Source: Microcoleus sp. CAWBG506
Lineage (GTDB): Bacteria > Cyanobacteriota > Cyanobacteriia > Cyanobacteriales > Microcoleaceae
Assembly (NCBI GenBank): GCA_020883125.1
Contig: JAHREW010000017.1
Coordinates: forward strand, 1-64,000
DNA: 64,000 nt
Direction: 5' to 3'
This document shows, in pieces, positions 32,713-60,419 of the stretch (within the stretch, counting starts at the first letter, position 1; every line of letters begins with the position of its first letter). The position numbers and the translations under genes are program-made. Below the pieces are notes generated by a model. That model made no database searches. It was given only the letters and a program-made list of their open reading frames with translations, and had not been told where the DNA came from.

Positions 32713-33339
32713 ATGGCTAAATATGTGAAACCCAATGAAGCAGCTAACACTCTGGGAGTTTGCCTGCGAACCCTCAGACGATGGGAAGCAAACGGCAATA
32801 TCTCCACCGTCAAAACGCCGTCAGGTCAAAGACGGTACGACATCGAAAAGTTCATCAAACAGGAATCAGAGCCAGACAGAGGACGCGCCACTGTTGTCTA
32901 TGCTCGCGTCTCTACCAGGCCACAAAAGGCAGACCTCGATCGACAAGTTGAACGACTATCAACGCTCTACCCAGGCGCTGAAATTGTTAAGGAAGTGGGA
33001 GGAGGACTCAATCTTAGGAGGAAAGGACTCATCAATATTTTGGGACGAGTTCTGCGAGGTGATATCGCAATTATTGTGGTTGCCCACAAAGACCGACTGG
33101 CAAGATTCGGATTCGACATTATCGAATGGCTCTGTGAGCAATTTGACTGCAAAATCGTGGTTCTCAACCAAATCAGTCTCTCTCCACACGCCGAACTCGT
33201 TCAAGATATCGTCGCAATCCTCCACAGTTTTTCAAGCCGACTTTACTCCATTAGAAGACTTGAAAACCAAATCAAGCAGGAGTTACAAGTCGAATCCAAG
33301 GCACAAGAAGGAGAAGAAGTCGCCCAACAAAACACTTAA
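32713..33339 (+). CDS. tnpA: IS607-type serine recombinase (TnpA)
   Basis: 208 residues. N-terminal MerR-like winged helix (KPNEAANTLGVCLRTLRRWEANG, GQRRYDIEKF). Serine-recombinase catalytic domain with the nucleophile in VVYARVSTRPQKADLDRQ (~residue 69), GGGLNLRRKGL, VVAHKDRLARFGFD and SPHAELVQDIVAILHSFSSRLY, all typical of IS607 transposases. It catalyses excision and integration through a circular intermediate. It overlaps the tnpB frame over nearly its entire length. Intact. Confidence 0.93.
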   Translation: MAKYVKPNEAANTLGVCLRTLRRWEANGNISTVKTPSGQRRYDIEKFIKQESEPDRGRATVVYARVSTRPQKADLDRQVERLSTLYPGAEIVKEVGGGLNLRRKGLINILGRVLRGDIAIIVVAHKDRLARFGFDIIEWLCEQFDCKIVVLNQISLSPHAELVQDIVAILHSFSSRLYSIRRLENQIKQELQVESKAQEGEEVAQQNT

Positions 33340-34417
33340 GATTCGGGTTTATCCTGAGCTTGAACTGCACCAAAAATGGAAGTCTTGGCTATCAGCATCG
33401 CGTTACTGCTACAACAAGGCTATTGCAGCCTTGAAAGCAGGCGAAAAAATAACCAGTGCTTATTCTTTGAGGGACTACGTGTTAGGACTGGACTTACCTG
33501 ATTGGGTTAAGTCAGCACCGTCTCACCCAAAAGAAAATGCTATTTTTGACGCGATCGATGCCTGGAAACAAGCTCTGTCCGTAAAAGGAGAAGCAAGATT
33601 TAGGAGCTGCCGCCAACCATCACAGTCAATCAAATTCCACAAAGTTAATTTCAACGGCAAGACTTGGTTCCCATCCCTAGTTAAAGGGCTTAGCTTTAGA
33701 AGTACAGAGCCAATTCAAAAGACCGAGTTTGCAACCCAACTTATTAGAGACAAAAAGCGATGGTTCGCTTGTATCCCAGTAACAGAAGAGGTGAGGACGA
33801 AGGAACTAGACAAGGTAATTGCACTTGACCCTGGCGTTAGAACCTTTTTGACTGGCTACGACGGCGACTCATTTCAAGAATTTGGCAAGGCAGACATTGG
33901 ACGCATTCAAAGATTGTGTTCTCACCTTGACAAACTAATGGGACGTGCGTCAAAAGCTGGTAGAAAGCAGAAACGCCGGATGCTAGAAGCGGCAAGCAAG
34001 CTGAGAATCAGGATTCGTGACTTGGTTGACGAGTGCCACAAGCAGGTAGTTAATTACCTGACAAGTCAATACAAAGTCATATTGCTGCCTACATTTGAAA
34101 CATCACAAATGGTTGTTAAATCAAAGCGCAAGTTACGCACCAAGACTGCTAGACAGATGCTCACTTGGGGGCATTACCGTTTTGAATGCCACCTCAAGCA
34201 ATCAGCCAAAAAACGGGGTGTCATTGTTATTGATGTTAACGAATCCTACACTAGCAAAACTTGCACCAAGTGCGGATACAATCATTCAAAACTGGGTGGT
34301 TCAAAAACATTTAAATGCCCCAACTGCGGTCACGAACATGACCGAGATTGGGGCGGCGCTCGAAACATTATGATTCGAGCTTTGAGGGACGGCTACGAGA
34401 GCTCTCTCTATCAATAG
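32735..34417 (+). CDS. tnpB: TnpB RNA-guided nuclease-type protein (OrfB family)
   Basis: The open frame has 560 codons, but the recognisable protein starts near KTLKIRVYPELELHQKWKSWL (from ~33315). A TTG at 33260 would give 385 residues, a normal TnpB length; the ATG at 32735 would include ~190 residues read from the tnpA gene in the +1 frame. RuvC residues are present: D in VIALDPGVRTFL, E in LLPTFETSQ, D in HDRDWGGARN. A zinc finger is formed by CTKCGYNH.......CPNCGHEHD. TnpB proteins cut DNA guided by an omega-RNA made from the element's 3' end. The WGG in place of the usual VNA after DRD is slightly unusual. Confidence 0.85.
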   Translation: MKQLTLWEFACEPSDDGKQTAISPPSKRRQVKDGTTSKSSSNRNQSQTEDAPLLSMLASLPGHKRQTSIDKLNDYQRSTQALKLLRKWEEDSILGGKDSSIFWDEFCEVISQLLWLPTKTDWQDSDSTLSNGSVSNLTAKSWFSTKSVSLHTPNSFKISSQSSTVFQADFTPLEDLKTKSSRSYKSNPRHKKEKKSPNKTLKIRVYPELELHQKWKSWLSASRYCYNKAIAALKAGEKITSAYSLRDYVLGLDLPDWVKSAPSHPKENAIFDAIDAWKQALSVKGEARFRSCRQPSQSIKFHKVNFNGKTWFPSLVKGLSFRSTEPIQKTEFATQLIRDKKRWFACIPVTEEVRTKELDKVIALDPGVRTFLTGYDGDSFQEFGKADIGRIQRLCSHLDKLMGRASKAGRKQKRRMLEAASKLRIRIRDLVDECHKQVVNYLTSQYKVILLPTFETSQMVVKSKRKLRTKTARQMLTWGHYRFECHLKQSAKKRGVIVIDVNESYTSKTCTKCGYNHSKLGGSKTFKCPNCGHEHDRDWGGARNIMIRALRDGYESSLYQ

Positions 34418-34569
34418 TGAGAGTATTGCTATCGCGTATGCCCTGTTTGTTCAGGGTTGTACAGCGTAACACCGTCAGCCCCTATACAAAATGATATCAT
34501 TAAGACTTGCGTCATTTGAGACTGCCGAGCGCACTTAGCAATTCTCCACCCATCTCAACAACATCTACA

Positions 34570-36567
34570 ATGCAATTCCTCGAACTCGTCCTCAAAAACT
34601 TCGGTCCCTATGCAGGCACTCAAACCATCAATCTCCGTCCAGAAAAAGACGGCAATCCATGCCCCATAGTCCTATTTGGGGGCATGAATGGCGGTGGCAA
34701 AACTACCCTCTTGGACGCCATTCGCCTCGCCCTCTACGGCGGCAGAGCTCAATGTTCCACCAGAGGCAATTTAAGCTACAGCGACTTCCTCAATCAATCA
34801 GTCAATCGCCACACTCCACCCTTAGACGATACCAGGGTTGAATTAATATTTGAACAAGTTCAAGATGATAAATTAAGCACATTTAAAATAGTTAGATACT
34901 GGAAAAAAAACGATATCAAAGACACCCTAAGTATTCTCATATATAGCGAATTTGTGACCGATTGGTGGGCAGACAAAGCCCTGAGCAACACCTGGGATGA
35001 ATACATCGAAACCATGCTACCAGTCGGCATATCTAACCTGTTTCTTTTTGATGGTGAACAAGTAAAAGAACTCGCGGAACTCGAAACTCCACCAGAATTT
35101 GTAGTGGGCGCAATTAAATCTCTTTTAGGTTTAGAATTAGCCGAACGCCTCGCCGTTGACTTAGAAATATTAGCCAGTCGCAAGCGTAAAGAAATGTCCG
35201 GCAAAAAAGACTTAGCAGCTTTAGAAAAAATTGAAGAAAAATTTAGTAAAATTACTCATAAAATCGCCGATGTCAAGGAAGATGCAACTAACTTAAAAAA
35301 CAAGTTAGAGCAAGCTAAAAAAAATCAGCAACAAGCATCAGATAAGTTTATTTCCGAAGGTGGGAAAATCGCAGCCGATCGCAGCCAACTAGACAGACAA
35401 CTAAACGACTACAGAGCCACTGCTGAAAAATCCCGTGAAGCGATGATTGAATTAGCATCAAATACCCTCCCCTTAGCCCTAATTTCCCCCCTGCTCAGCC
35501 AAGCCAAAACCCAAGCAGAAACAGAAGCCAGCCAGCAGCGAGCCAAAATTGCCCAAAATATTATCAAAGAAAAAAGCGATCGCCTCCTCAACTACATCGC
35601 CGAAATTTCATTGAACCCCGAACAACTAGACAAAATACAAGACTTCATCCGCCAAGAAAATAGAGAACTAGAACAGCTAATCGGCTCCGACACCACCCCC
35701 TGGTTAGCAGCCGACAATGACAACATCCAACAACTAGAAAATATCCTCAACCACCAAATCCAATTCCAGCAAACCACAGCCGCCGAAATCATAAAAAAAA
35801 TCCAAAATATAGAATCAGAAATCGACTTCTCTGAGAGACAATTAGCCACCGCCGCTTCTCCCGAAGCCTACAAAGAACTAGAAATAGAGTTAAAAAACAC
35901 CCAAGAAGCAGTCGCTAATGCAGCAGCAGACTTGGTGTCAGTTAACCGCTACATCGAGGAATTAGAAAAAGAATTAGCCCAAGTCAAAAAAGAATTAGAA
36001 AACTACAGCAGCGAATTCATCACCATCAGAAACAGCCAACACATCATCGCCTCCATCGCTAAAGCCCAAGCCACTCTCAAACAATTCAAAGAAAAACTTA
36101 CCCTCAAAAAACTCAATAAACTAGAAGTAGAAATCACCGATTGTTTCCGCTACCTGCTGCACAAAACTGACTTAGTACACAGAGTAGCCATAGATACCCA
36201 AACCTTTAGTCTTTCCATCTACGATACCGAAGGAAAACAAGTACCCAAACACCGACTTTCAGCAGGAGAAAAACAACTGCTAGCGATCGCCTTTTTGTGG
36301 GGATTAGCCAGGGTATCCGGGAGACAATTACCAGTCGCCATCGACACTCCCCTAGGCCGCCTCGACTCCTCCCATCGCAACAACCTAGTCGAACGCTATT
36401 TCCCCTCCGCCAGCCACCAAGTCATCCTACTATCAACAGATACAGAAATTGGCAAAACAGAATATGATAAGCTGCAAGAATTAGAGGCGATCGCCCACAG
36501 CTACATCCTCCAATATGATTCCGCCAAACGCCAAACCACCGTTGAAACTGGTTACTTTTGGCCATAA
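34570..36567 (+). CDS. dndD: DNA sulfur modification ATPase DndD
   Basis: About 665 residues from this ATG (MQFLELVLKNFGPYAGTQTI), where SMC-like DndD proteins begin; the frame is open 21 codons further into IS-flanking DNA. Walker A is GGMNGGGKTTLLDAIRLALYG (21 residues; core NGGGKTT), followed by a long coiled coil (~residues 200-510) and the ABC signature/Walker B end (HRLSAGEKQLLAIAFLWGLAR, LPVAIDTPLGRLDS). DndD works with DndC and DndE to put phosphorothioate into the DNA backbone. The usual upstream dndB and dndC are absent; an IS607-type element stands there. The remaining DndD looks complete. Confidence 0.92.
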   Translation: MQFLELVLKNFGPYAGTQTINLRPEKDGNPCPIVLFGGMNGGGKTTLLDAIRLALYGGRAQCSTRGNLSYSDFLNQSVNRHTPPLDDTRVELIFEQVQDDKLSTFKIVRYWKKNDIKDTLSILIYSEFVTDWWADKALSNTWDEYIETMLPVGISNLFLFDGEQVKELAELETPPEFVVGAIKSLLGLELAERLAVDLEILASRKRKEMSGKKDLAALEKIEEKFSKITHKIADVKEDATNLKNKLEQAKKNQQQASDKFISEGGKIAADRSQLDRQLNDYRATAEKSREAMIELASNTLPLALISPLLSQAKTQAETEASQQRAKIAQNIIKEKSDRLLNYIAEISLNPEQLDKIQDFIRQENRELEQLIGSDTTPWLAADNDNIQQLENILNHQIQFQQTTAAEIIKKIQNIESEIDFSERQLATAASPEAYKELEIELKNTQEAVANAAADLVSVNRYIEELEKELAQVKKELENYSSEFITIRNSQHIIASIAKAQATLKQFKEKLTLKKLNKLEVEITDCFRYLLHKTDLVHRVAIDTQTFSLSIYDTEGKQVPKHRLSAGEKQLLAIAFLWGLARVSGRQLPVAIDTPLGRLDSSHRNNLVERYFPSASHQVILLSTDTEIGKTEYDKLQELEAIAHSYILQYDSAKRQTTVETGYFWP

Positions 36568-37937: not shown

Positions 37938-40900
37938 ATGAACGCCTTTGAGTTCGAGATTACCATCCAGAGCCAATCAGGTGTGAGTAGCTGGCCGATT
38001 GTTGTCAGGTGTAAGCAACCAGATGGGCTAACCACCCATTCAAAAGAGACTCTTGAGCTAACTCAGGATGACTTAAACAAACTCACCCAACAGCAAGAGA
38101 ACGAGAAAGAATATGGCATCCTTTTGGGCCAAGCCCTGTTTCGAGGATCTGTGCGCGAGACTTTTGTTCGCGCCCTATCCAAGAGTACCCAAGACTGCCG
38201 CCTGCGAATTTTACTCTCAATTGAAGCGGCGGACAACGATAAAGTCAAGACCTTACATTGGGAACGACTGTGTGCTCCCATTGATGCCGACGGAGATTGG
38301 TATCTTTTAGCCCGTAACCAGCGCGTGCCATTTTCCCTGTACATTCCCACTATTATAGATCGCCGCTTTCCGCCAATTGGGCGGCGTGACTTGCGATCGC
38401 TGGTGCTGGCAGCCAGTCCCTCGAATATAGGAAAATATCAACTAGCGCCCTTTGATGTTGAGGCAGCCTTATCAGGAGTCAAAGCAGCTCTCGGTGATAT
38501 TCCTTACGATATGCTAGCAAATGACGTTACAGGTGCCCTCGGTCCGCCCACGCTACAAGAACTATCTAAGCAACTGACCCAGGCCCAGAAACCCTACACC
38601 TTACTCCACTTGATCTGCCACGGCAAGCTGATGGCGACAGGTGAGACAGTTTTATACTGGGCGCAAGCTGACAATCAAGTTCTGCCAGTAACTGCCGAAG
38701 ACCTGATCGGAGAATTGAAGAACATCGGTAATTATCAGAGGAGTTTACCTCACTTTGCCTTCCTCTGCACTTGTGAGAGTGCCGACCCCAGAGCCGAAGG
38801 AGCATTAGGCGGATTAGCTCAGCGATTAGTCAGAAATCTGGGGATGCCCGCAGTCATCGCCATGACCCGCAAAGTGAGCGTAGAGACAGGCTTGGCTCTA
38901 GGACAGAGCTTTTACCGACGACTCAGAGAGTCCGGAGAAGTAGACACGGCCCTGCAAGAAGCCACAGCCGGACTGTCCAAGCGCCACGATATTACAGTAC
39001 CAGCCCTATTCAGCCGCTTGGGTGGACGTCCCTTGTTCAGCGATCGCCTCGACGATCGGGAACTAACAGACGAGGAAATCGAGTATGGTCTGGAAAAGCT
39101 GCAACAGCTCCTCCAAGAGCGAGCCCCTCATGCCTCCGTACTCAAACAGAGGTTTGAAACCCAGGTAAAGACGCTAAAAAATACCAGGGGAGCCGACTCA
39201 CGCACCGCCCGCTCAGATCGTCATCAGGCAATAGTTGAACTCAACAACCTCTGCGACCAAGTGCTCGATCTCACTTTTGACGCTCTGGCAGCCTTGGGTA
39301 AGGAACCACCAGAATACAAGGCCCAGTGCCCCTTCCCTGGGCTGTCTTCCTTCGGTGATCAAAAATACCACAAGTTCTTCTTTGGGCGTGACGAGCTGAT
39401 TAAGGACTTACAAAAAGAACTGGCGAAGGACAATTTCTTAGCCGTAATCGGCACTTCGGGTAGTGGCAAGTCATCGGTGGTGTTAGCGGGGCTGATTCCT
39501 AAGCTCAAAGAGGAGGAGCTAAGCCTCCAGTGGGCTTACATGACGCCAGGAAAAGAGCCTCTGAGACAGCTAGAAAGACAATTAAAAAGATTATCGAAGG
39601 TATTAGAGCCACATTCAATATTAGTAGTAGACCAATTTGAGGAACTTTTTACACTCTGTGAGGATAAAGACCATCGGCAAGCATTCATCGAAAAGTTGTT
39701 AAATATTGCCGAGCCGCGGAAAGTTGTAATCACGATGCGGGCTGACTTTTTGGGAGAGTGTACCTTCTACCCCGAACTGAGAAAGCGGATTGAAACCCGA
39801 CAAAAATTGGTTGGGCCGATGGAACCTGCGGAACTGATTACAGCCATGAAGATGCAGGCAGATAGTGCGGGACTGCGCTTTGAATCGGGCTTGAGCCACT
39901 CGATTCTCAATGACGTGGAAGGGGAGCCTGGAGCGATGCCGCTGCTGCAATATGCGTTGCAGGAACTGTGGAAGCGACGGCGGGGGCGGTGGTTGTGCGA
40001 TGAGGAGTACCAGGCGATTGGCAGAGTCGAAAAGGCGATCGCTAAGACTGCCGATGATTTCTACAATAGCTTGTCAGCTTCGGAGCAAGAGCCAATCCGC
40101 AATATCTTCCTGCGCTTAACTCGCTTGGATGCGAGTGCTGTACCAGGGGAGAAGCGACGGGACACGCGCCGAAGAGTGGAGTTAGAGGATTTAGTGCAAA
40201 CAGGCGATGAGTTAGCCGCGACAAGGAAGTTGGTGCAGCAGTTGTCGGGTGAAGGGGTGCGGCTGGTAGTTACCAGTCGGAACGAAGCTACGGGAAAGGA
40301 AGAAGTAGAAGTCGCTCATGAAGCTTTAATCCGCCACTGGCCGACGTTGCAAAATTGGTTGAATCAGAATCGCAGTGACTTGCAACTGCGAGAAACCATC
40401 AATCAGGCAGCACAGGAGTGGCAGCAGCACCAGGAGCAACCAGACAAAGACATTTATCTCATCCTTCAGGGGGGACGATTAGAAGATGCTGAGGTGTTGT
40501 GGAAGCACCCCAAATTTGTGCATCTCAATCAACTTGAGGCGGAGTATGTTTTGGCTTGTGTCCAGTTGCGCCAGCGACGACGCCAGCTTGAGGAACAACG
40601 CAGAAAGCGTCAGCTTATGGTGGCTGTGAGCGTTGCTTGGGTCTTGGGTGGATTTGCCATTTTTGCTGGGTATCAGTGGAGGAAAGCAGAAAGTCAGCAA
40701 ATTCAGGCTTTTCTAACATCTGCTGAAGCCCGCTTGACTTCTAATCAAACACTGGATGCAAGGATAGAAAGTTTAAGAGCTGCCAAAGCACTTAAGCAGT
40801 CATTCTGGCAACCACTTTGGCATGAGGCTGGGTTAAAAAATCAAGTGCTAGGCAAGCTGTCCCAAACAATTTATGCAGGACAGGAAGTTAACCGTTTAGA

Positions 40901-42893
40901 AAGCAATCAAAGGCAAGTTTATAATCTCGCTTTCAGCCCGGATGGCAAGACTCTGGCTACCAGTGGATCTGAAAGCCTATTTCGCCCGGTGTCAACGATC
41001 GTCCTGTGGGACACTTTTGGCAAGCAGTTGGCCAATTTCAAAACGAAGCAAGGTAAGGTCAATAGCGTGGTGTTCAGCCGGGATGGCAAGCTCCTAGTCA
41101 CTGCTGGATTAGACGGCACCGCCCGCCTGTGGGACACTTCTGGCAATCAGTTGGCTGTCCTCAAAGAGCATCAAGGCGAGGTCAAGAGCGCCGTGTTCAG
41201 CCGGGATGGCAAGGTCATAGTCACTGCTGGAAAAGACCGCACCGCCCGCCTGTGGAACACAAAAGGCAAGCAGTTGGCCGTTCTCCAAGGGCATCAAGGC
41301 GAGGTCAAGAGCGCCCTGATCAGCCGGGATGGCAAGCTCATAGTCACTGCTGGAAAAGACGGCACCGCCCGTCTGTGGGACACAAAAGGCAAGCCGTTGG
41401 GCATTCTCAAAGAGCATCAAGGTGAGGTTAATAGCGTGGCGTTAAGCCCGAATGGCAAGCTTTTCGTCACTGCGGGAGACGAGGGCTTCATTCATGTGTG
41501 GGACACTTCCAGTGAACGATCGATCAACCGCAAACAGCATAAAGGTGAGGTCTATACCGTGGCGTTCAGTCCGGATGGCAAGCTTTTCGTCAGTGGTGGG
41601 CAAGACAACACCGCCCACCTGTGGGACACCGCCCGTCTGTGGGACACAAAAGGCAAGCTGTTTGTCACTCTCTATGGGCATAAAGGTGATATCAATAACG
41701 TGGTGTTCAGCCCGGACGGCAAGCTCCTAGCCACTGCTGGATTAGACGACACCACCCGCCTGTGGGACACAAAAGGCAAGCCGTTGTTCGTCCTCAAAAT
41801 GAATCAAGGTGAGGACAAGAGCGCCATGTTCAGCCCGGATGGCAAACTTTTGGTCACTGCAGGAGAAGACGGCACCGCCCGCCTGTGGGACACTACAGGC
41901 AAGCAGTTTGTCATTCTCAAAGGACATCAAGGTAATGTCTATGATGCAAAGTTCAGCCGGGATGGCAAGCTCATACTCACTACTGGAGAAGATGGCACCG
42001 CCCGTCTGTGGAACACGTCGGGCAAGCCGTTGGCTGTCCTCAAAGGGCATCAAGGTAATGTCTATGATGCGGAGTTTAGTGAGGATGGCAAGCTCATATT
42101 CACTGCGGGAGCAGACGGCACCGCCCGTCTGTGGTACACCTCTGGCAAGCCGTTGACTGTCCTCCAAGGGCATCAAGGTAATGTCTGGAGTGTGAATTTC
42201 AGCCGGAATGGTAAGTTCATAGTCACGGCGGGTGCAGATGGCACCGCCCGTCTGTGGGACATAAAAGGCAAGCAGTTGGCCGTTCTCAAAGGGCATCTAG
42301 GTAATGTCTATGATGCGGAGTTTAGTGGGGATGGCAAGCTCCTAGTCACTGCGGGAGCAGATGGCACCGCCCGTCTGTGGGACATAAAAGGCAAGCAGTT
42401 GGCCGTTCTCAAAGGGCATCTAGGCAATGTTGGGGGTGCCGAATTTAGTGCCGATGGCAAGCTCATAGTCACTGCGGGAGAAGATAGCACCGCCCGTCTG
42501 TGGGACATAAAAGGCAAGCAGTTGGCCGTTCTCAAAGGGCATCTAGGAAAGCTCTTGGGTGGGGAGTTTAGCCAGGATGGCAAGCTCATAGTTACTGCTG
42601 GAGAAGACGGTACCGCCCGTCTGTGGGACATAAAAGGCAAGCAGTTAGCCGTTCTCCAAGGGTATCAAGGCCGAGTCCATAATGCCAGGTTCAGCCCCGA
42701 TGGCAAGCAGCTAGTCACTGCTGGAGGAGACGGCACCGCTCGCCTGTGGAAAATCGGAGAAATGGATGAACTCGTAGCAATGAACTGCGATTGGGTGCGT
42801 GACTATCTAAAGAACCCCAGTGTCGATCTCAGTGAGAGCGATCGCCATCTTTGTGATGATATTGGCACTGCTAGTAGTTCAACAAAAAATTAG
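37938..42893 (+). CDS. CHAT protease - STAND ATPase - WD40 repeat protein
   Basis: 1651 residues. Residues ~1-380 form a CHAT (caspase-HetF-associated) domain with catalytic-dyad candidates H228 (LLHLICHGKL) and C279 (FLCTCESAD). A STAND ATPase follows at ~460-830: Walker A GTSGSGKSS at 505-513, Walker B HSILVVDQFEELF, and the winged-helix end EVAHEALIRHWPTLQNWL. A single transmembrane helix is at ~893-912. About 15 WD40 repeats follow (~995-1610), then a cysteine-containing tail (MNCDWVRDYL...DRHLCDDI) common to such cyanobacterial proteins. Expected mode: WD40 sensor binding triggers ATPase oligomerisation and protease activation. Convergent with the lipoxygenase operon. Confidence 0.93.
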   Translation: MNAFEFEITIQSQSGVSSWPIVVRCKQPDGLTTHSKETLELTQDDLNKLTQQQENEKEYGILLGQALFRGSVRETFVRALSKSTQDCRLRILLSIEAADNDKVKTLHWERLCAPIDADGDWYLLARNQRVPFSLYIPTIIDRRFPPIGRRDLRSLVLAASPSNIGKYQLAPFDVEAALSGVKAALGDIPYDMLANDVTGALGPPTLQELSKQLTQAQKPYTLLHLICHGKLMATGETVLYWAQADNQVLPVTAEDLIGELKNIGNYQRSLPHFAFLCTCESADPRAEGALGGLAQRLVRNLGMPAVIAMTRKVSVETGLALGQSFYRRLRESGEVDTALQEATAGLSKRHDITVPALFSRLGGRPLFSDRLDDRELTDEEIEYGLEKLQQLLQERAPHASVLKQRFETQVKTLKNTRGADSRTARSDRHQAIVELNNLCDQVLDLTFDALAALGKEPPEYKAQCPFPGLSSFGDQKYHKFFFGRDELIKDLQKELAKDNFLAVIGTSGSGKSSVVLAGLIPKLKEEELSLQWAYMTPGKEPLRQLERQLKRLSKVLEPHSILVVDQFEELFTLCEDKDHRQAFIEKLLNIAEPRKVVITMRADFLGECTFYPELRKRIETRQKLVGPMEPAELITAMKMQADSAGLRFESGLSHSILNDVEGEPGAMPLLQYALQELWKRRRGRWLCDEEYQAIGRVEKAIAKTADDFYNSLSASEQEPIRNIFLRLTRLDASAVPGEKRRDTRRRVELEDLVQTGDELAATRKLVQQLSGEGVRLVVTSRNEATGKEEVEVAHEALIRHWPTLQNWLNQNRSDLQLRETINQAAQEWQQHQEQPDKDIYLILQGGRLEDAEVLWKHPKFVHLNQLEAEYVLACVQLRQRRRQLEEQRRKRQLMVAVSVAWVLGGFAIFAGYQWRKAESQQIQAFLTSAEARLTSNQTLDARIESLRAAKALKQSFWQPLWHEAGLKNQVLGKLSQTIYAGQEVNRLESNQRQVYNLAFSPDGKTLATSGSESLFRPVSTIVLWDTFGKQLANFKTKQGKVNSVVFSRDGKLLVTAGLDGTARLWDTSGNQLAVLKEHQGEVKSAVFSRDGKVIVTAGKDRTARLWNTKGKQLAVLQGHQGEVKSALISRDGKLIVTAGKDGTARLWDTKGKPLGILKEHQGEVNSVALSPNGKLFVTAGDEGFIHVWDTSSERSINRKQHKGEVYTVAFSPDGKLFVSGGQDNTAHLWDTARLWDTKGKLFVTLYGHKGDINNVVFSPDGKLLATAGLDDTTRLWDTKGKPLFVLKMNQGEDKSAMFSPDGKLLVTAGEDGTARLWDTTGKQFVILKGHQGNVYDAKFSRDGKLILTTGEDGTARLWNTSGKPLAVLKGHQGNVYDAEFSEDGKLIFTAGADGTARLWYTSGKPLTVLQGHQGNVWSVNFSRNGKFIVTAGADGTARLWDIKGKQLAVLKGHLGNVYDAEFSGDGKLLVTAGADGTARLWDIKGKQLAVLKGHLGNVGGAEFSADGKLIVTAGEDSTARLWDIKGKQLAVLKGHLGKLLGGEFSQDGKLIVTAGEDGTARLWDIKGKQLAVLQGYQGRVHNARFSPDGKQLVTAGGDGTARLWKIGEMDELVAMNCDWVRDYLKNPSVDLSESDRHLCDDIGTASSSTKN
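40918..42770 (+). repeat. WD40 repeat array with 123-bp DNA period
   Basis: About fifteen 41-residue units are present. The last third (42240-42660) is nearly identical at DNA level: the block GACATAAAAGGCAAGCAGTT recurs at 42258, 42381, 42504 and 42627, exactly 123 bp apart. Near 41620-41640 the sequence CTGTGGGACACCGCC leads directly into CGTCTGTGGGACAC, leaving a duplicated W-D-T-A-R-L-W-D-T, a trace of slippage or unequal recombination. Confidence 0.9.
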
Positions 42894-43008: not shown

Positions 43009-44721
43009 TTAACTTAATGCCTTCAACACATTCAACAGATTGGTGGCTATTGACGTTGCTGTTTTCAGGCTTTCGGCGCTGTCAGATGAAGCTTTTTGAG
43101 CAGTATTGACAAATTGCTCGATTGATGATATTAGCTGTGTCTGAGCCTGCTTGAGGTCAATTTCACTAGCCACTGAGCCTGCGCTGCTTTCTGCGGGCTT
43201 TTGTCCCAGGTCAGAAGGCAAATACACAGGAGTTTCAATCGTAGGGCGATCGGTGCTGGCCTCTTTACTATCACTGACAACCAGCCGGACTGCTGGATCG
43301 CCGATAATGCCATAGTTGCGAGCATCATTATTAGCCGTCCACATACCAGCCAAACTCTGATTGTTGGGGATTCCCCCAAACTTGATGTCTTCTAGCTCAA
43401 CGCTAAGGTCGGAGGAGATTTCAGCATAGCGCTGGTCAAAATATTCTAGCGCTGACCCCACTGGATGACCTTCTAGCAAACGCTTCACGGTACTCTGAAA
43501 AACTGCGATCTGCCTTTTTTCTGCACTAGAACCGCGAATGTCTGACCAGGAGAAAGAACAGCCCCACGCGCGATCGATGTGACCAATTACAGCGAGAGCA
43601 CCTCCCTTGGGATGACTCAAGAGTTTTTGCGGTAAGCGGGCAATAAAGGGATACGGTGCAAGGTCTGGTCGTTCAGAAAGGGATTTTTTGTGACCGTCGA
43701 ATTCATCTTTTTGGGGGCAACCTGCGCCATAGCAAGCAAAGTGAAAAGCAATTAGCCCTAGCAAGCGGGCTTGTTCGCCAATATCATCCCCAGAAAAGTA
43801 AAAATCTTCCGGGATCGGCTTTCGTCCCCATTCGCGACCCGGCCAGTCTTGGCACAGCAATGCGCCTTGGTGGGGCAACTGACGCGGATCGCCATTGGGA
43901 AAGCCCATGCCATGGCTGGCAGTGAAAAGCAAACCAGGCGTTTCGCTACCTCCTAGCAGTTGCCCCAAGCGGGCCTTGGTTGCTTCTTCTTTAAGAATCG
44001 TTTTTACATTCCAGTTAGGATGTTCCTCGACAACCCATTCAGAAAGTGGCTGAATCAGGTCTTGAGTGCTGAGATTAGTCGCAGCGTCTCCTGGGTTGCA
44101 CACGCCGAAAAAGGCAGCGCTTGGGGATAGGGATAAATTGCTAGTTTCAGATTCTACTACACTGTGAGCGTACTGCGCGTATTCCTGTAGCGTATCAAAA
44201 TAAATGCGACCCACTGCGTATTGAACATCGAGCTGGCACTGAAAGCGATAGGGAATTGTTACAGGATCTCCAACAATTAGTAGGTAATAGGGCATTTTGT
44301 CTGGATCGGCTGGCCCTGGCCCTACTCCCTGACGCGACAGAAACTGATTTTTTGACTCGCCCGGACGATAACCCTTGACACCACTGTATTCCTGGTAGTA
44401 TTTTTCTTTCTTCTGGGTGGCTTGCCTTTTGCGGTGATCTAATAGTTCGCTGAGTGCCTCCCGGATTGCCGGATCGACATTATGAGCGAAAATTACTCCC
44501 CAACCTGTTTCAGCTAGGTTTTTGGGGTCTACTCCCTCTATAACAGCAAAATCAGGCTCTTCATTTTGTCGCTTTTTTAGCTGGATATCTTCTATATCTT
44601 CTGGAGCAAATTCTTCGCCTTGGGCAATTCTAGATACTTGCTCCGCAGTCAGAGGGGGGAGCAAATAATCACCCGTCGAGCCATTAATTCCATTAAAAAA
44701 TAGCAGGTCTTCTTCGTTCAT
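43009..44721 (-). CDS. Caspase-fold (C25/CHAT-like) cysteine protease
   Basis: 570 residues, no signal peptide. The catalytic pair of the caspase clan is visible: H270 in PGLLFTASHGMGF and C330 in IAFHFACYGAGCP, each after a hydrophobic strand as in gingipain-type C25 and CHAT proteins. Upstream a conserved YYLLIVGDPVTIPYRFQCQLD with YAVGRIYFD resembles the C25 N-terminal subdomain. Downstream are GGALAVIGHIDRAW and MWTANNDARNYGIIGDPAVRL, the latter also typical of C25. The C-terminus is Ala/Ser-rich and helical. Last gene of a three-gene minus-strand operon with lipoxygenase and GHSFG hydrolase. An AGGAAA ribosome-binding site precedes the start. Substrate unknown; activation of a neighbour by cleavage is a hypothesis. 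Confidence 0.85.
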   Translation of the reverse strand: MNEEDLLFFNGINGSTGDYLLPPLTAEQVSRIAQGEEFAPEDIEDIQLKKRQNEEPDFAVIEGVDPKNLAETGWGVIFAHNVDPAIREALSELLDHRKRQATQKKEKYYQEYSGVKGYRPGESKNQFLSRQGVGPGPADPDKMPYYLLIVGDPVTIPYRFQCQLDVQYAVGRIYFDTLQEYAQYAHSVVESETSNLSLSPSAAFFGVCNPGDAATNLSTQDLIQPLSEWVVEEHPNWNVKTILKEEATKARLGQLLGGSETPGLLFTASHGMGFPNGDPRQLPHQGALLCQDWPGREWGRKPIPEDFYFSGDDIGEQARLLGLIAFHFACYGAGCPQKDEFDGHKKSLSERPDLAPYPFIARLPQKLLSHPKGGALAVIGHIDRAWGCSFSWSDIRGSSAEKRQIAVFQSTVKRLLEGHPVGSALEYFDQRYAEISSDLSVELEDIKFGGIPNNQSLAGMWTANNDARNYGIIGDPAVRLVVSDSKEASTDRPTIETPVYLPSDLGQKPAESSAGSVASEIDLKQAQTQLISSIEQFVNTAQKASSDSAESLKTATSIATNLLNVLKALS

Positions 44722-44776
44722 ATTTTTATTTCCTGATTGGTTACGCTAACAATCGCTATTTGATAAATATAAAACA

Positions 44777-44825
44777 GATAGAAACCCCACAAGCTTTTTG
44801 TACAGGGGCTTTCTGAGTTTCTATC
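44777..44825 (-). promoter_or_regulatory. Hairpin in the hydrolase-protease intergenic gap
   Basis: GATAGAAAC (44777-44785) and GTTTCTATC (44817-44825) form a perfect 9-bp stem with inner CCCC/GGGG complementarity. It lies in the 143-bp gap after the hydrolase stop, before the protease gene. No T-run, so it may tune read-through or mRNA stability within the operon. Confidence 0.45.
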
Positions 44826-44864
44826 CGTTCTGACAGGCAAAAAAATTTGGTCCAACCCTAGGGG

Positions 44865-46199
44865 TTACGTGGGATAAGCTGCCGACCACACGGCATGAGC
44901 AACTTCGGGTTTGGCAATGTCGCAATGGGCACCGCTAGTTGGTCCTCCTAGCTCGACGTTACAAATAAATTTGCTGCTTTCCAGGTTATAGATTTTGCCC
45001 GGTTTAAAATCATAAGAGGCATCGCAGGGGAGCATATTCGTGTTTTCCGCTGCGAGATCATCTCCACCTAGACCAAAGCTGCCAATTCCACCATACTTAG
45101 GCAATTGACCGGGGGCAAAATCCACACTACTAAAGGCAGTTTTTCCCGCTAGGGGGTACATCCTGCCGACTGCATAGTCGAACTGGGAGTGAGTTGTAAC
45201 GATCGGACCTGCGACTTTACTTTGAGCGATGATTGTATTAAAGTAACCAGGCCGATCGCGTTCGTATGAAATCTTTGAACAGTAAGACCAGAGCGATACA
45301 GCGCCTTGTACCAACGCCAGAGAATCCACTGGGCGGACTAAGATGCCCTTTCCTTTTGGACCAGACAGGATGGAAGAGACAACAACGCATCCGAAACTGT
45401 GACCCATCAGGTGGAATCGCACCGTTTCAGCAGCCTTCTCTTGCAGTGTTTTTAACAAGTTGAAGCCACTGTTCTCACCGATTTGGCGAGCGCGATCTTT
45501 CATTTTCCAATAAGACAGTACCCGCAGGGGATCCAAAACCTTATCCCAGACTGAACTGCTGTCGGTGCTGAAACTTACTGGTTCATCTTTACTCGCTTCA
45601 TAAATGGCTTCTGGATCGAAACCTTCCCAATCGGAACCCGGTGCCCCACCTTCACCTTCGGTACCCAAGTCAGCTTCTTGGTTTAACACTTGGTAGGCGC
45701 TTAGTACCTCTGGTGGCAAGCTATCAAGTGTATTGTCTTCGCTCGCCGAGTTGAGAATTGTGTGCAGGGCTTGTCGGGCTGCTTCTGTGTTCGCGATGCG
45801 CGAGGCATATTCATCAACTAACTGCTCGCGTGGATCTTCGTCGTCCACGTCAAAGGACACCGAACTTGTCAAATCTTCATTGCCCCAAGGCTTGCTAGGC
45901 CAGTGCAGCCCAATCATTAAGGGACGAAATCCCGATCGCACCTGTTTGATTTTTTCAATATCGGCTGTTTGTTTAGCCATTGCGCCAATCCAGTCGTTGT
46001 ACTGCTGTCGCGCTGCGGGGATGTCGCCCAGCCACCCGTGGCTCATCAGGAATACATCTGTGATTGGCTCATTCGCTAGTGCTGAGAAGATTTGTTCGCT
46101 CAGTTTCTTCCCATCAGCTTCATCGCGTTCCTTGCCATCCTTATCAAAGGCAATCAGGTAGTAATTCAAGGAAGTATTAGGTACTTTTTCAATTGGCAT
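44865..46199 (-). CDS. Alpha/beta-hydrolase (GHSFG serine hydrolase, lipase/esterase-like)
   Basis: 444 residues, soluble. FLMSHGWLGD (~50-59) is the oxyanion-hole strand of alpha/beta-hydrolases, followed by LMIGLHWPSKPWG. The nucleophile elbow is FHLMGHSFGCVVVSSIL with S268. A long acidic insertion (~110-225) sits between them. The C-terminal part has VTTHSQFDYAVGRMYPLA, whose D and H could complete the triad (inference), and ends VELGGPTSGAHCDIAKPEVAHAVW with another candidate histidine. No signal peptide. Second gene of the operon, 145 bp after the lipoxygenase gene. Such a hydrolase could release fatty acids for a lipoxygenase, but the substrate is not shown by the sequence. Confidence 0.8.
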   Translation of the reverse strand: MPIEKVPNTSLNYYLIAFDKDGKERDEADGKKLSEQIFSALANEPITDVFLMSHGWLGDIPAARQQYNDWIGAMAKQTADIEKIKQVRSGFRPLMIGLHWPSKPWGNEDLTSSVSFDVDDEDPREQLVDEYASRIANTEAARQALHTILNSASEDNTLDSLPPEVLSAYQVLNQEADLGTEGEGGAPGSDWEGFDPEAIYEASKDEPVSFSTDSSSVWDKVLDPLRVLSYWKMKDRARQIGENSGFNLLKTLQEKAAETVRFHLMGHSFGCVVVSSILSGPKGKGILVRPVDSLALVQGAVSLWSYCSKISYERDRPGYFNTIIAQSKVAGPIVTTHSQFDYAVGRMYPLAGKTAFSSVDFAPGQLPKYGGIGSFGLGGDDLAAENTNMLPCDASYDFKPGKIYNLESSKFICNVELGGPTSGAHCDIAKPEVAHAVWSAAYPT

Positions 46200-46344
46200 G
46201 GCATTTACTCACTTAAGAAAAACTGGTCGAACGGTAGGTAAAGGAACGGGGGTTCTGATGGCGGTGTTTTGTTTCTACTTCTGGGCTTATGTTATCAAGC
46301 AGCTATCTACTTTGGATTGCGCTGCCTGAATCAATAAAGTAGAA

Positions 46345-48528
46345 CTAAATATTTATACTTTGCGGAATTTGAGAAGGTAGCAAGAATTTGTAAGGCATGA
46401 GCCGGGAAAAGTTTTTCTTGCTAATCTCAATTTCAATATCTCTTAGCTGATTTTGAAATTGGCCCAGATAGGACATGACTTTGGCATCTTTAAAGTGTCC
46501 TTTGTTGTATTGACCTAGCTGCGTGTAATATACTGAACCAAGTAAATAATCTACCCCTATTTGAGTTTGGGAGCGGTCTAGGGAAGGTAGCATACTCATA
46601 AAGTTCCCTTGTTTCTCCGAACTTGTAGGTGCTGGGGAGTAGATGGCGAAAGGAAAAGCCGGCGCATAGCTCATTAATTCAGATTGAGGGAAATTAACTG
46701 CCGCGTGCTGAGCACTTGCAGTAAAAATGACACTAGAGACAGCATCAATTAAATAATTGAGTGTTTTAATCGCACCTGAAGCATCTTCTCCAAAATTCTT
46801 TAAGCGACCCCCTTGGTCAGAAACTAATTCCTGTGCCCAATTTTGTAAAGCTTTATCTTCGAGTAATTGGTGGTCGCTAGTGTAGTAAATGCTTAAATAA
46901 GAACCAACCCAGGTATGAATAGCATCCCAAATCAGCCGTCCATCATCTCGATAAGGATAATCGGGTAACTGAGCGCTGTTGCCTACACCGTGCTTTGTCA
47001 AGGTTTTGGGAAACATTACATCATTGAAGTTGTGCAGATAGCTTTTTGCTCCTTCAACGGCAAGAACACGATCGTCCTCAATAGTGCTAGCTAGAAGCTG
47101 ATCTACTTTTCCTCCGGTAGCAATTAAGGTTTTATGAGCCCCGTAATTGATTAATATAGTTCCTTCAAAGTGAGGTTCTAGCAAAATTCTTAATTTGTGA
47201 TGTGCTGGCAATTTCCGCTTACTAGCTAGAACAAAAGGTTCGATAAATAAATGAGTGCGACCTAAATGACTAACTAATTCGTGGTAGTTACTATCCGCCA
47301 TTTGAACGATGGTTTTAGCGACCATCCAGTTGTCACCATCTAGCGGCGTAAATACGGGTGGATTTTCACTGACAGAAGGGGGCTGGCATTGAATAGCTAC
47401 TGGGATTAGAGAACGAGATGAACTATTAACTGGGGGAACCGCAAATAATGCTAAAGGCGCAGCAGGGTATTTTTTGACGTTGTTTGGAAAACTCCCCTGT
47501 GCCATGTCTTTTAACATGGAATAATCGGCTTGATAAAGTCGGCCTTCTTGCAGAGCAGCTTCAAGTGAGTCGGAAAACTCAAACTTTTCGATTATTTGCT
47601 GATATTTTTCGTTGGTAATCTGCAAAGGTTTATTTTGTTCTGATAGCTGCTGGAGCATAAGTGGGTTTGGCCCAGCAACTCGCATATAGGCAAAAATTAA
47701 ATCTTCTTGAAACCTTTGGCTAATCTGGGGTAAGCGGATATCTACAAATAATTTATTGTAATCCTCCAGACTGGGAAAATCTTGAAATCCTCCTGTAGAA
47801 AAATCTACATTTGAACTTGGCTCACTTTCTAATTCCAACAATTTTATGTTTTCTTTGATAATTTCCTTAAAAGCTAAATCCAGCGATTCTCCTGACCTAT
47901 CTTCCAAGTCAGAGCCAACACCAACACTAAAGTCTAATTCCTCTGAAGTTTCACTAGATTGGTAGGCTTTAGCAAATTGCTCATCTATATGTCTTAGCTG
48001 CTCATCAATTGCAGAACTTTCTGCCGATTCAATAGGATCATCTACGCTGAAAGATACTCCACCAGGAGAAAGTTCTTGCGTGATTTGTTTAGCAGTCGAG
48101 GCTATTTTCCAAGCAATATTTGTCAAATATTCTTTACTATCAACGCTCTTAATTTCTTGTTCAATATCTTTCAATACTTGCAATTTTTCATCAAAAAATG
48201 AACTTTCTTCTATACTAGATCCCACACTAAAAGATGGAATATCGTTTTCAAATTTTCGGGCTTTATTAGCATTTAAAATAGTTATTTTTTGTACGACTAG
48301 CATCACCCATTCTTTACTTGGTAGCTCTTCACTTGGTATATTGAGATGAATGACAGGCAATGGAGGCGAACTCGTCATAGCGAGGCTTGAAATATAATCA
48401 TAATTATAATTATATTTCCCAAATGGACGAAGCCAGAAAGCAAATTTGACTACCTTATAAAGTGTTAAGAGAGTATTGATTAGGGTGGTTTTGTCCGAAT
48501 AATTTAGTTGTTCAGAAGATAAAGACAT
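46345..48528 (-). CDS. Lipoxygenase with novel N-terminal region
   Basis: 727 residues. All five iron ligands of lipoxygenases are present: H416 and H421 in NYHELVSHLGRTH, H608 and N612 in SAQHAAVNFPQ, and the C-terminal isoleucine I727. The surrounding WMVAKTIVQMADS and THLFIEPF are also canonical. It would insert dioxygen into polyunsaturated fatty acids. There is no PLAT/C2 domain. Instead, residues ~80-250 are helical and contain four similar motifs (SFSVGSSIEESS, SFSVDDPIESAESS, DFSVGVGSDLED, DFSTGGFQDF). Strong ribosome-binding site AGGAGGG 3-4 nt before the ATG supports this start. First gene of the minus-strand operon. Confidence 0.93.
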   Translation of the reverse strand: MSLSSEQLNYSDKTTLINTLLTLYKVVKFAFWLRPFGKYNYNYDYISSLAMTSSPPLPVIHLNIPSEELPSKEWVMLVVQKITILNANKARKFENDIPSFSVGSSIEESSFFDEKLQVLKDIEQEIKSVDSKEYLTNIAWKIASTAKQITQELSPGGVSFSVDDPIESAESSAIDEQLRHIDEQFAKAYQSSETSEELDFSVGVGSDLEDRSGESLDLAFKEIIKENIKLLELESEPSSNVDFSTGGFQDFPSLEDYNKLFVDIRLPQISQRFQEDLIFAYMRVAGPNPLMLQQLSEQNKPLQITNEKYQQIIEKFEFSDSLEAALQEGRLYQADYSMLKDMAQGSFPNNVKKYPAAPLALFAVPPVNSSSRSLIPVAIQCQPPSVSENPPVFTPLDGDNWMVAKTIVQMADSNYHELVSHLGRTHLFIEPFVLASKRKLPAHHKLRILLEPHFEGTILINYGAHKTLIATGGKVDQLLASTIEDDRVLAVEGAKSYLHNFNDVMFPKTLTKHGVGNSAQLPDYPYRDDGRLIWDAIHTWVGSYLSIYYTSDHQLLEDKALQNWAQELVSDQGGRLKNFGEDASGAIKTLNYLIDAVSSVIFTASAQHAAVNFPQSELMSYAPAFPFAIYSPAPTSSEKQGNFMSMLPSLDRSQTQIGVDYLLGSVYYTQLGQYNKGHFKDAKVMSYLGQFQNQLRDIEIEISKKNFSRLMPYKFLLPSQIPQSINI

Positions 48529-56960: not shown

Positions 56961-58979
56961 TTATATACCTTCCAGTGTTGAATCCTTATCATTAAAATTC
57001 CAATTATTTGTACCAGGAGAAACAGCAAACTCACTCATTGTTACTTGTCTTAGGTTGTCGCCACTACAACTAGCTTTGTCGCTGTTCGGAATCTTGAAAG
57101 CATTAACTATATCTACACAAAATGATGAATTTCCCGCTCCCCAACTACTTTCACCTGTTTTGGCATAAACATATAAATTACCCCGGTAATTTTGTTCAAC
57201 ATCAACTTCTATACATTTTCCTAGCTCAATATTCCACCAACCTCTTGAACGCAATCCTTTTCCGTCCCAATATGCTAAAGCAGCACTTATTTCTTTTTTG
57301 GATGTTTTATTGCAGAAGTTTATATAAGTAGTTTTTTCAAATTCATTGACTTTGCTTTGCAACCGATCGCGTTCCTCCTGCAAAGATCCATTTTGACCTT
57401 CAAGTTTATTAACTCTACTTTTCCAAGTATTAATCTCTTTTGCAAAATCTGAGTTTTGGGTTTCTATTTTGGAGATTAATTCTTCTATATTTAGATATAA
57501 AAATGACTCATTTCCTTTAAATACATTCATCACGTCTTGTAGTTCAACTGACAAGGATGGTTTGTTTCCTTTGGGTGGAATCAATTTTTTATCAAGTCTA
57601 ATTTTCTCTATATGTTGCTTAACTTGATTGATTTGTTGATACTGGTAGTAACAGAATCCACCAAGAGCAGTAGCAATGACTGTTGAAATTACAGCAATAC
57701 TTTTTACCAAAATAGGATAACTCCATTTTTGAGTTTGTTGAGTCAGTGAATTTTGCGAGGGATTAATCGGTTGTTTACCCTGGGTTGAAATTGCTGGTTG
57801 AACCAAGGATTGTAGATGAGTATTTTGCTGAGTATTTGTATTTTTCTGAGGACTCGTAAATAGACTTGTTGCATCTATCGGCTGTGATGAGCCTGATGTA
57901 GCACCCCCTTGTTTATTTTGTTGAGAACCCGTGAATAAACTTGTTACATCTACCTGCTGTGATGAGCCTGATGTAGCACCCCCTTGTTTATTTTGTTGAG
58001 AACCCGTGAATAAACCTGTTACATCTATCGGAGTTGGTGTAACAATCTTCAATACATCATCAAGGGAAGGAATTTTGCTGAAATCTGTTAACTTGCAAAT
58101 TTTTTTTACTTCATCAGCCAGTCGTGCAACCTCGGTAGACAATTGAGAGAGAACATGAAAGACTTGTGAACTATCTGGATTTTCTAAATCTGCAACAGAA
58201 AACAATAATCTTTCAGTATTATCCATATTATAAGTTTGCCATAAATGAGGGTTTTCAGCAATTGCAACAATTGACAGATAAATAACCAGTTGAGGAAAAT
58301 AATCTATTTGAAGGCACTGCTTTTGGAGCTTGATTATCAACGGATGTTGATAATCAAGTAGACCTTTAATTTCGTCATTAATGCCATTGCCATCTGCCGC
58401 AAAATAAAGACTATCGTAGTCGATTAATTTTATATTTACGCCACTACTATCATCAACAGTGATATTCTCTGGATGCAAATCTCCATGAGCGATTCCGGCA
58501 TCAGCCAAGTCTTTCGATAATTTAACCCAAGCTTGAGCTAACAAATCTAATTTATTTTTATTTTTAAGATTGTCTTGAATGAAATTCCTTAAATCTTTAC
58601 CCTCAGCCCATTCCATTTTGATAGTTGGGTAAATATTGCCATCAACTCTAATTCCCTTAGCTGAGAAGCTACATTCAAGAAAGTAAGATGAACAAGGAAT
58701 GTTTGGGAGGCGACTGGAGACTTTGCCATAATGACTAGCAACATTCGATGTACTTCGTAAAAAACATCTAACAGCCCACAACTTTTTAGGATTGAAAGTT
58801 TCATATTTAACAACGCAAGCCCAGCCGCCAGCGGAACTCCAAAAATCTTGACTATTGGGTGCTATTTTCACAGGTTTACCAGCAACCAATATGGGGTCAA
58901 GGTTCTTAAATGCAATTTGAGGATAACGAAGAGCGCGGTGGTATTGACTGATACTTGGATAAACGCAATTAGTTGCCAA
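56961..58979 (-). CDS. Membrane-anchored protein kinase with C-terminal DUF1036-like domain (TerY-P triad kinase)
   Basis: About 672 residues from a TTG (58979) that lies 4 nt after the PP2C stop and has GGGGG 8 nt upstream; an ATG at 59099 would overlap PP2C by 116 bp and precede any kinase sequence. Kinase catalytic loop GIAHGDLHPENITVDD and metal-binding IDYDSLYF (DFG equivalent) are present. Then follow three repeats around VTSLFTGSQQNKQGGATSG, a transmembrane helix (LVKSIAVISTVIATALGGFCYY), a coiled coil and a domain with CNKTSKKEISAALAYWDG, SRGWWNIELGKC and YRGNLYVYAK that resembles DUF1036. Third gene of the VWA-PP2C-kinase triad. Confidence 0.85.
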   Translation of the reverse strand: MATNCVYPSISQYHRALRYPQIAFKNLDPILVAGKPVKIAPNSQDFWSSAGGWACVVKYETFNPKKLWAVRCFLRSTSNVASHYGKVSSRLPNIPCSSYFLECSFSAKGIRVDGNIYPTIKMEWAEGKDLRNFIQDNLKNKNKLDLLAQAWVKLSKDLADAGIAHGDLHPENITVDDSSGVNIKLIDYDSLYFAADGNGINDEIKGLLDYQHPLIIKLQKQCLQIDYFPQLVIYLSIVAIAENPHLWQTYNMDNTERLLFSVADLENPDSSQVFHVLSQLSTEVARLADEVKKICKLTDFSKIPSLDDVLKIVTPTPIDVTGLFTGSQQNKQGGATSGSSQQVDVTSLFTGSQQNKQGGATSGSSQPIDATSLFTSPQKNTNTQQNTHLQSLVQPAISTQGKQPINPSQNSLTQQTQKWSYPILVKSIAVISTVIATALGGFCYYQYQQINQVKQHIEKIRLDKKLIPPKGNKPSLSVELQDVMNVFKGNESFLYLNIEELISKIETQNSDFAKEINTWKSRVNKLEGQNGSLQEERDRLQSKVNEFEKTTYINFCNKTSKKEISAALAYWDGKGLRSRGWWNIELGKCIEVDVEQNYRGNLYVYAKTGESSWGAGNSSFCVDIVNAFKIPNSDKASCSGDNLRQVTMSEFAVSPGTNNWNFNDKDSTLEGI

Positions 58980-58983
58980 AATA

Positions 58984-60369: not shown

Positions 60370-60419
60370 TTTTACTTCATTTATTACGATGATAGGAATG
60401 GTTTGAAAGTGAACTCCAA

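Follow-up and report, generated by a model that had tools for sequence, protein, structure and literature searches.

Gene content of the locus

The window, i.e. the whole 64,000-nucleotide stretch that was analysed (positions 1 to 64,000 of contig JAHREW010000017.1, Microcoleus sp. CAWBG506), carries on its minus strand three successive genes for a lipoxygenase (LOX), a putative alpha/beta-hydrolase and a C25-like cysteine protease, and on the plus strand, convergent with the last of these, a gene for a receptor-like CHAT-nSTAND1-WD40 protein (hereafter CHAT-STAND). Judged from sequence, in some filamentous cyanobacteria a LOX and a probable lipid-cutting hydrolase adjoin two caspase-like proteases, of which one forms a fusion with an immune-receptor-like sensor. 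A preliminary description had reported the three minus-strand open reading frames (ORFs), and their place, strand, intergenic gaps (145 bp between LOX and hydrolase, 143 bp between hydrolase and C25) and named residues were all confirmed.

The LOX (46345..48528, minus strand, 727 aa) matched PF00305 with an E-value of 8.8e-56 and PDB lipoxygenases down to E 1.6e-104, and all five iron ligands are present (H416, H421, H608, N612 and the C-terminal I727). Its identity is unambiguous, and dioxygenation of polyunsaturated fatty acids is predicted. The adjoining hydrolase (44865..46199, minus strand, 444 aa) contains a G-x-S-x-G nucleophile elbow, GHSFG with S268, that was invariant in 18 of 18 aligned hydrolases. 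No Pfam match was obtained for the window hydrolase itself, and its relatives gave weak matches to Abhydrolase_6 (10/18, best E 0.044) and Hydrolase_4 (3/18, best E 9e-4). The structure model (predicted local distance difference test, pLDDT, 72) places a large insertion between strand 93-99 and the nucleophile strand 261-267.

The third gene (43009..44721, minus strand, 570 aa) encodes a clan CD cysteine protease that matched PF01364 above the cut-off (E 1.4e-6), spanning residues 365-480 only. The predicted catalytic dyad comprises H270 within ASHG and C330 within ACYGAG, both invariant in the 29 sequences aligned out of 48 available. Using an AlphaFold2 model (pLDDT 84), the best Foldseek matches were the gingipains Kgp and RgpB (E 1e-7 to 2e-6, template-modelling (TM) score about 0.4 by query). 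SAVED-CHAT and separase ranked lower, behind unrelated folds of low TM-score such as the N-terminal domains of AMPA receptors (E 5e-5 and up, TM-score about 0.14), which lay between the gingipains and SAVED-CHAT. PDB sequence searches with the window protease found no C25 member. The protease had been described as C25/CHAT-like; by fold it is C25/gingipain-like, with predicted proteolytic activity, and the CHAT protease is the product of the neighbouring gene.

This neighbour (37938..42893, plus strand, 1651 aa) also adjoins the C25 gene in related loci. It combines a CHAT domain (E 1.9e-14 in a search of residues 1-450), an nSTAND1 domain (E 5e-114) and about 15 WD40 stretches, so that a STAND NTPase, sensor-type repeats and a protease domain occur together in the arrangement of STAND/NLR-like receptors. 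The CHAT match covers residues 211-348 (38568..38981, plus strand) and includes HLICHG and CTCES, which we take to be the likely His/Cys dyad. Tandem Repeats Finder detected an array with a 123-bp unit in the WD40-coding region (41003..42749, plus strand; 79% matches), and the likeness of these repeats at the DNA level fits a changeable sensor.

Transcription of the three minus-strand genes as an operon, as previously proposed, is doubtful given a hairpin between hydrolase and C25 and the varying position and orientation of the LOX gene. The hairpin (44771..44831, minus strand) has a 17-bp outer stem and may be a terminator or processing site. It was stable relative to shuffled sequences (z -2.5; 2 of 200 equally stable), a matching stem was seen by eye in the related loci L013-L015, and a terminator scan of the window did not report it. 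An insert of about 135 bp with inverted CTCTTGCAAAA ends, resembling by eye a miniature inverted-repeat transposable element, occupies the LOX-hydrolase gap in L013 (8225-8540) and L015 (2680-2995). In view of the 143- and 145-bp gaps, the hairpin and this insert, co-transcription is no more than possible. The CHAT-STAND gene is convergent with C25 in the window, L013, L014 and L016. Tens of bases separate hydrolase from C25 and C25 from CHAT/STAND in several Nostocales, and small gene overlaps may stem from the choice of ORF start.

Occurrence and linkage across genomes

A search of 386 cyanobacterial genomes yielded the hydrolase in six, C25 in seven (one a remnant) and LOX in 58. Hydrolase and C25 were adjacent in all six hydrolase-bearing genomes and CHAT-STAND adjoined C25 in all six, with the three genes adjoining on one strand in the five other than that of the window. 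On the basis of this adjacency the conserved core is considered to be hydrolase-C25-CHAT/STAND, with LOX as a recurrent accessory. The module had been called self-contained, which was not borne out: that description left out the usual CHAT-nSTAND1-WD40 partner and included a LOX that is optional.

A genome scan of GTDB with the C25 alignment produced 56 loci, of which 29 were classed as non-cyanobacterial and 27 as cyanobacterial (L013-L030, L032, L035, L038, L046, L052, L064 and L066-L068). These 27 include loci cut by contig ends (e.g. L015, L023, L035, L046, L066), C25 remnants (L064, L067, L068) and pairs from one genome (L017/L035, L019/L032, L026/L030). With that composition, the hydrolase was found in 22 of 27, though split into pieces in L028 and L067, a CHAT-STAND-type gene in 19 and LOX sequence in nine, comprising six full ORFs (L013, L014, L016, L018, L020, L046), the frameshifted L015 and fragments in L022 and L052. 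Pfam matches confirmed the CHAT domain of four proteins (those of the window, L014, L029 and L133, a Nostoc plasmid locus), and the other CHAT-STAND proteins were assigned through their resemblance to residues 1-930 of the window protein. The L032 representative (L032:14747-17392), counted among the 19, is an nSTAND1-WD40 protein with, by eye, a p20-caspase-like N-terminus and no CHAT among the matches listed. L013 is judged close to the window species because the C25 proteins are 99% identical; there a transposon-like gene (by eye; L013:11986-13245) lies between C25 and CHAT-STAND, and the CHAT-STAND ORF begins within the STAND part.

The distribution of the module is patchy, as it was present in none of six other listed genomes of the same genus. 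C25 also occurs on Nostoc, Planktothrix and Sinorhizobium plasmids. Outside the cyanobacteria the hydrolase was found once among the 29 loci (L040), and a Sinorhizobium plasmid, found separately, encodes a 44% identical hydrolase adjoining C25. Neither hydrolase nor C25 was found at 20 stand-alone LOX loci. Two Nannocystis genomes hold both LOX and C25; linkage was rejected there, the genes being about 165-175 kb apart provided contig C2 is the record concerned. Collectively, genetic linkage is well supported: LOX and hydrolase/C25 co-locate in several further genomes, more than by chance.

A motif shared by the hydrolase and the LOX linker

Inspection of the two lipid enzymes by eye revealed a short motif, roughly V-[SD]-F-[SGD], in the flexible insertion of the hydrolase; the N-terminal linker of LOX has as many as four copies. 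In the window LOX the four copies lie within the N-terminal 250 or so residues, all on the minus strand: IPSFSVGS (residues 97-104; 48217..48240), GVSFSVDD (157-164; 48037..48060), ELDFSVGV (197-204; 47917..47940) and NVDFSTGG (240-247; 47788..47811), the last directly before the catalytic domain. The third was recognised by the pattern and a joint profile and falls below the threshold of the hydrolase-only profile. The hydrolase copies, on the same strand, are SVSFDVDD (residues 113-120; 45840..45863), which lies in a low-confidence loop of the model (112-120), and PVSFSTDS (207-214; 45558..45581), with S209 and F210 invariant in the six hydrolases aligned. By profile the first copy is weaker or missing in L027.

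A profile trained on octamers from 13 hydrolases only, and hence blind to LOX, gave at least two hits in 7/7 module-linked LOXs tested vs 0/17 unlinked ones; this comparison covered neither the frameshifted L015 nor the sister L105 nor the other LOXs of the 386-genome search. N-terminal hits numbered three in the window, L014, L018 and L020, two in L013 and four in L016 and L046, and of 300 shuffles for each linked LOX row between 0 and 12 reached the number observed. Among the unlinked LOXs, four of five sisters had no hit and the fifth had one, and none was found in twelve short LOXs. Of the 43 window proteins with 150 aa or more, the hydrolase and the LOX alone had three motif hits.

Alignment with hhalign of the LOX linker, the hydrolase insertion and P270, a protein of about 270 aa from other C25 loci described below, gave probabilities of 0.6%, 0.6% and 15.9%; the value of 15.9% concerns 30 columns surrounding the motif. 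Homology of these segments was accordingly rejected, and because the probabilities are low the motif, not a shared domain, is taken as the common element.

History of the linked LOXs

The linked LOXs formed one clade (support 99/98) of nine rows, including L099 and the L015 piece, in a midpoint-rooted tree of 28 rows. Within this clade three arrangements occur. In the window and L013-L015 LOX lies upstream and in the same orientation, in L016 and L046 it is upstream and divergent, and in L018 and L020 it follows CHAT-STAND. In the last, Nostoc-type arrangement, the order in L018, L020 and L022 is ferrochelatase, hydrolase, C25, CHAT-STAND, LOX. Apart from the motif the linker is poorly conserved, with L018 and L020 sharing 55% identity in the linker vs 85% in the catalytic part.

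In L099 (genome G278) the LOX gene adjoins the ferrochelatase gene directly, no hydrolase or C25 match was found in the genome, and the LOX retains one motif hit. The ferrochelatase-LOX spacer is 78% like the L020/L018 ferrochelatase-hydrolase spacer over about 345 bases (plus a shorter piece), and next in order comes a weak match of 27 residues with the end of CHAT-STAND (one-sequence search, E 0.001). This spacer is consistent with the scar of a module deletion.

C25 neighbourhoods in other phyla

In Chloroflexi, Acidobacteria and other phyla C25 is often accompanied by CHAT, STAND-WD40, P270 and a protein of about 110 aa. Enzymes found near C25 at single loci include patatins (L031, L055), a GH108 muramidase (L041) and an LCAT-like protein (L034). 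Relatives of P270 (E <1e-30) were detected in 14 loci, including the two cyanobacterial loci L029 and L032, and ten were used to build a profile, by which P270-like ORFs of L029, L037, L047 and L060 missed by a longest-ORF rule were recovered. No match to P270 was obtained in Pfam (7 members searched), NCBIfam (5) or PADLOC (1). P270 proteins carry the motif at as many as three positions of their alignment. The motif is also present as GVDFGLID in the L041 muramidase (L041:7038-7991), where the linker that holds it precedes a C-terminal part with a likeness, by eye, to the protein of about 110 aa.

For a count of motif frequency, a profile trained on LOX and hydrolase was applied to those non-cyanobacterial loci, 25 of 29, that have C25 in the ORF set. 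Core proteins were removed, as were WD40 proteins, since WD40 repeats (SVSFSPDG) mimic the motif. At a threshold of 8, 18/54 proteins near C25 carried the motif vs 21/164 others (Fisher p 0.001), with similar values at thresholds of 7 (p 0.001) and 10 (p 6e-4) and for a slightly different locus set (p 6e-4). The enrichment is regarded as real but modest, and the statistics ignore relatedness among loci.

Proposed mechanism and alternative explanations

The preferred reading is that of a STAND/caspase conflict module with motif-marked lipid effectors, acting in regulated cell death or abortive infection, to which a probability of roughly 0.45 is assigned. In such a system the CHAT-nSTAND1-WD40 protein would sense an insult via its WD40 propeller and then assemble, upon which the CHAT protease, the C25-like protease or both, in whichever order, would become active. 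The active protease would engage the hydrolase and LOX via the V-[SD]-F-[SGD] motifs of the hydrolase insertion and the LOX N-terminal linker, cleaving or repositioning these segments and unleashing both enzymes. The hydrolase would then free acyl chains and LOX would peroxidise the polyunsaturated ones, resulting in membrane damage and/or oxylipin signals. Recurrence in other genomes, the single clade of linked LOXs and the shared motif favour the coupling between protease, hydrolase and LOX put forward in the preliminary description.

Several observations weigh against this reading. The hydrolase fold was not confirmed, as Foldseek with the model of pLDDT 72 gave nothing at E <=0.001 and cutinases only at E 0.9-2.6, and because of this the alpha/beta-hydrolase call rests on the GHSFG motif together with the weak profiles. 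The profile finds the second hydrolase motif copy weakly or not at all in L025, L029 and L030, the L020 LOX has lost one copy with the module present, and the motif has, by eye, no obvious or constant P1 residue, for which reason docking is considered as likely as cleavage. Since the linked LOXs are a single lineage, the contrast between linked and unlinked LOXs reflects conservation and one apparent loss, not many independent gains. Between L020 and L099 the pairwise dN/dS (ratio of nonsynonymous to synonymous rates) was 0.16 for the catalytic part and 0.27 for the linker, with no sign of LOX decay after module loss. The motif enrichment in other phyla weakened when P270 was omitted (12/46 vs 20/163, p 0.02; 0.02 at a threshold of 7 and 0.015 at 10) and was not significant at the strictest threshold of 12 (p 0.07; 0.31 without P270). 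The hairpin and the convergent CHAT-STAND gene make a single transcript in the window doubtful.

Alternatively, LOX might be a hitchhiker beside an ordinary hydrolase-C25-STAND defence module. Of the ten intact loci flanked by about 10 kb on either side, seven (L017, L021, L025, L026, L027, L030, L038) lack LOX within 10 kb and three have it, once as a fragment; LOX is for this reason not essential to the module. One linked LOX clade has nonetheless stayed with the module through three arrangements and shares its motif, and this explanation is rated the least probable of those weighed. An oxylipin-making cluster, in which the hydrolase frees fatty acids, LOX oxidises them for signalling or grazer deterrence and the proteases only tune turnover, would accommodate the LOXs of the 386-genome search, which mostly occur without C25, and the retention of LOX without the module in L099. 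It would also accommodate two oxidative genes. A cytochrome P450 (L018:16809-18128; PF00067, 1.4e-20) between CHAT-STAND and LOX is a possible oxylipin-processing step, and an animal-haem-peroxidase-family gene (L133:4941-6716; PF03098, 8.1e-24) upstream of hydrolase-C25-CHAT-CHAT on the Nostoc plasmid is perhaps another lipid oxygenase in the place of LOX. No similar P450 was found in the other loci compared, however, the hydrolase accompanies C25 and STAND far more often than it does LOX, and the unlinked LOXs lack the motif repeats, and such a cluster is considered unlikely.

The motif may instead serve assembly or amyloid-like signalling, drawing effectors together on the receptor without being a protease substrate. 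Known amyloid signalling places the motif on the receptor as well as on the effector. Residues 1-1000 of the window CHAT-STAND gave no motif hit, relatives in L025, L028, L030 and L038 gave single low ones, and cyanobacterial C25 proteins had none or one low hit, so that a motif common to receptor and effector, as in NLR amyloid signalling, was not found here. Hydrophobic-polar-aromatic motifs in flexible segments of unrelated proteins would suit assembly, and amyloid motifs have been described for NLR systems; on balance assembly seems more doubtful still than an oxylipin cluster.

A broader extension of the conflict-module reading is that the often-repeated V-[SD]-F-[SGD] serves as a portable client tag, marking unrelated effectors (LOX, hydrolase, patatin, muramidase, P270) for the C25/CHAT pair under a STAND sensor. 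The cyanobacterial payload of lipase and LOX would then amount to protease-triggered lipid peroxidation death by an iron enzyme, caspase-like and ferroptosis-like in one locus. This idea is tentative and is rated less likely than not. If true, bacterial LOXs would gain a role as the payload of a caspase/STAND conflict system, enzymatic lipid peroxidation would be a programmed weapon in bacteria, and a readable motif would predict which neighbours are controlled by a bacterial caspase-like protease. Furthermore, the origin of protease-gated lipid death would become directly testable in small, expressible gene sets.

Other features of the window

Elsewhere in the window, positions 56961-61283 (minus strand) encode a TerY-type triad of a vWA protein (PADLOC TerY, 3.2e-63), a PP2C-like protein (7.6e-28) and a kinase-like protein (STK_OB, 1.5e-59). 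A protein encoded at 34507-36567 matched PADLOC PbeC (9.5e-280) and DndD (5.5e-231) and adjoins a resolvase/TnpB-like pair at 32713-34417.

Comparison with known systems

No PADLOC match was obtained for the window C25, hydrolase or LOX. The protease resembles gingipains (peptidase family C25) in its best fold match and His/Cys dyad, and differs in having only 11-13% identity over the fold match, no evident signal peptide (by eye) and a STAND genomic partner. The linked LOXs share the catalytic domain with stand-alone cyanobacterial LOXs, which differ in having at most one N-terminal motif hit (17 tested) and neither hydrolase nor C25 (20 loci). The Apaf-1 apoptosome is a STAND NTPase with a WD40 propeller that triggers a caspase cascade; the window module is similar, by analogy only, in setting a STAND NTPase and WD40 propeller beside caspase-fold proteases, and differs in that its CHAT protease is fused to the receptor and its proposed clients are lipid enzymes. 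The apoptosome is mentioned in PMC7159879.

In Craspase (TPR-CHAT; PMC9729208) and in bacterial gasdermin operons a caspase-like protease likewise acts on a neighbouring effector, whereas the proposed clients here are lipid-metabolism enzymes. Membership in either group was rejected, as no gasdermin or Craspase domain was among the matches listed for the four window proteins (for CHAT-STAND, the best 25 of 73 families).

The main texts of PMC8195603, PMC10907252 and PMC12419801 do not contain the term lipoxygenase, and that of PMC7159879 contains neither lipoxygenase, c25 nor patatin. No paper on this gene set was among the matches listed in open-access literature, in line with the earlier statement that no such bacterial system is known to have been described; the pairing of protease and hydrolase, by comparison, is already a known theme, because VMAP systems, according to Kaur et al. 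2020 (PMC7159879), invariably have an alpha/beta-hydrolase gene next to their caspase-superfamily domains. The MoxR-vWA-VMAP/iSTAND systems resemble the window module in their occurrence in multicellular bacteria, the caspase-superfamily domain with a hydrolase neighbour, STAND domains and variable effectors, and effector deployment by proteolysis is proposed there too. The window module differs from them in its C25-like protease, its CHAT-nSTAND1-WD40 protein, its proposed LOX client and its repeated linear motif; the targeting principle is possibly new.

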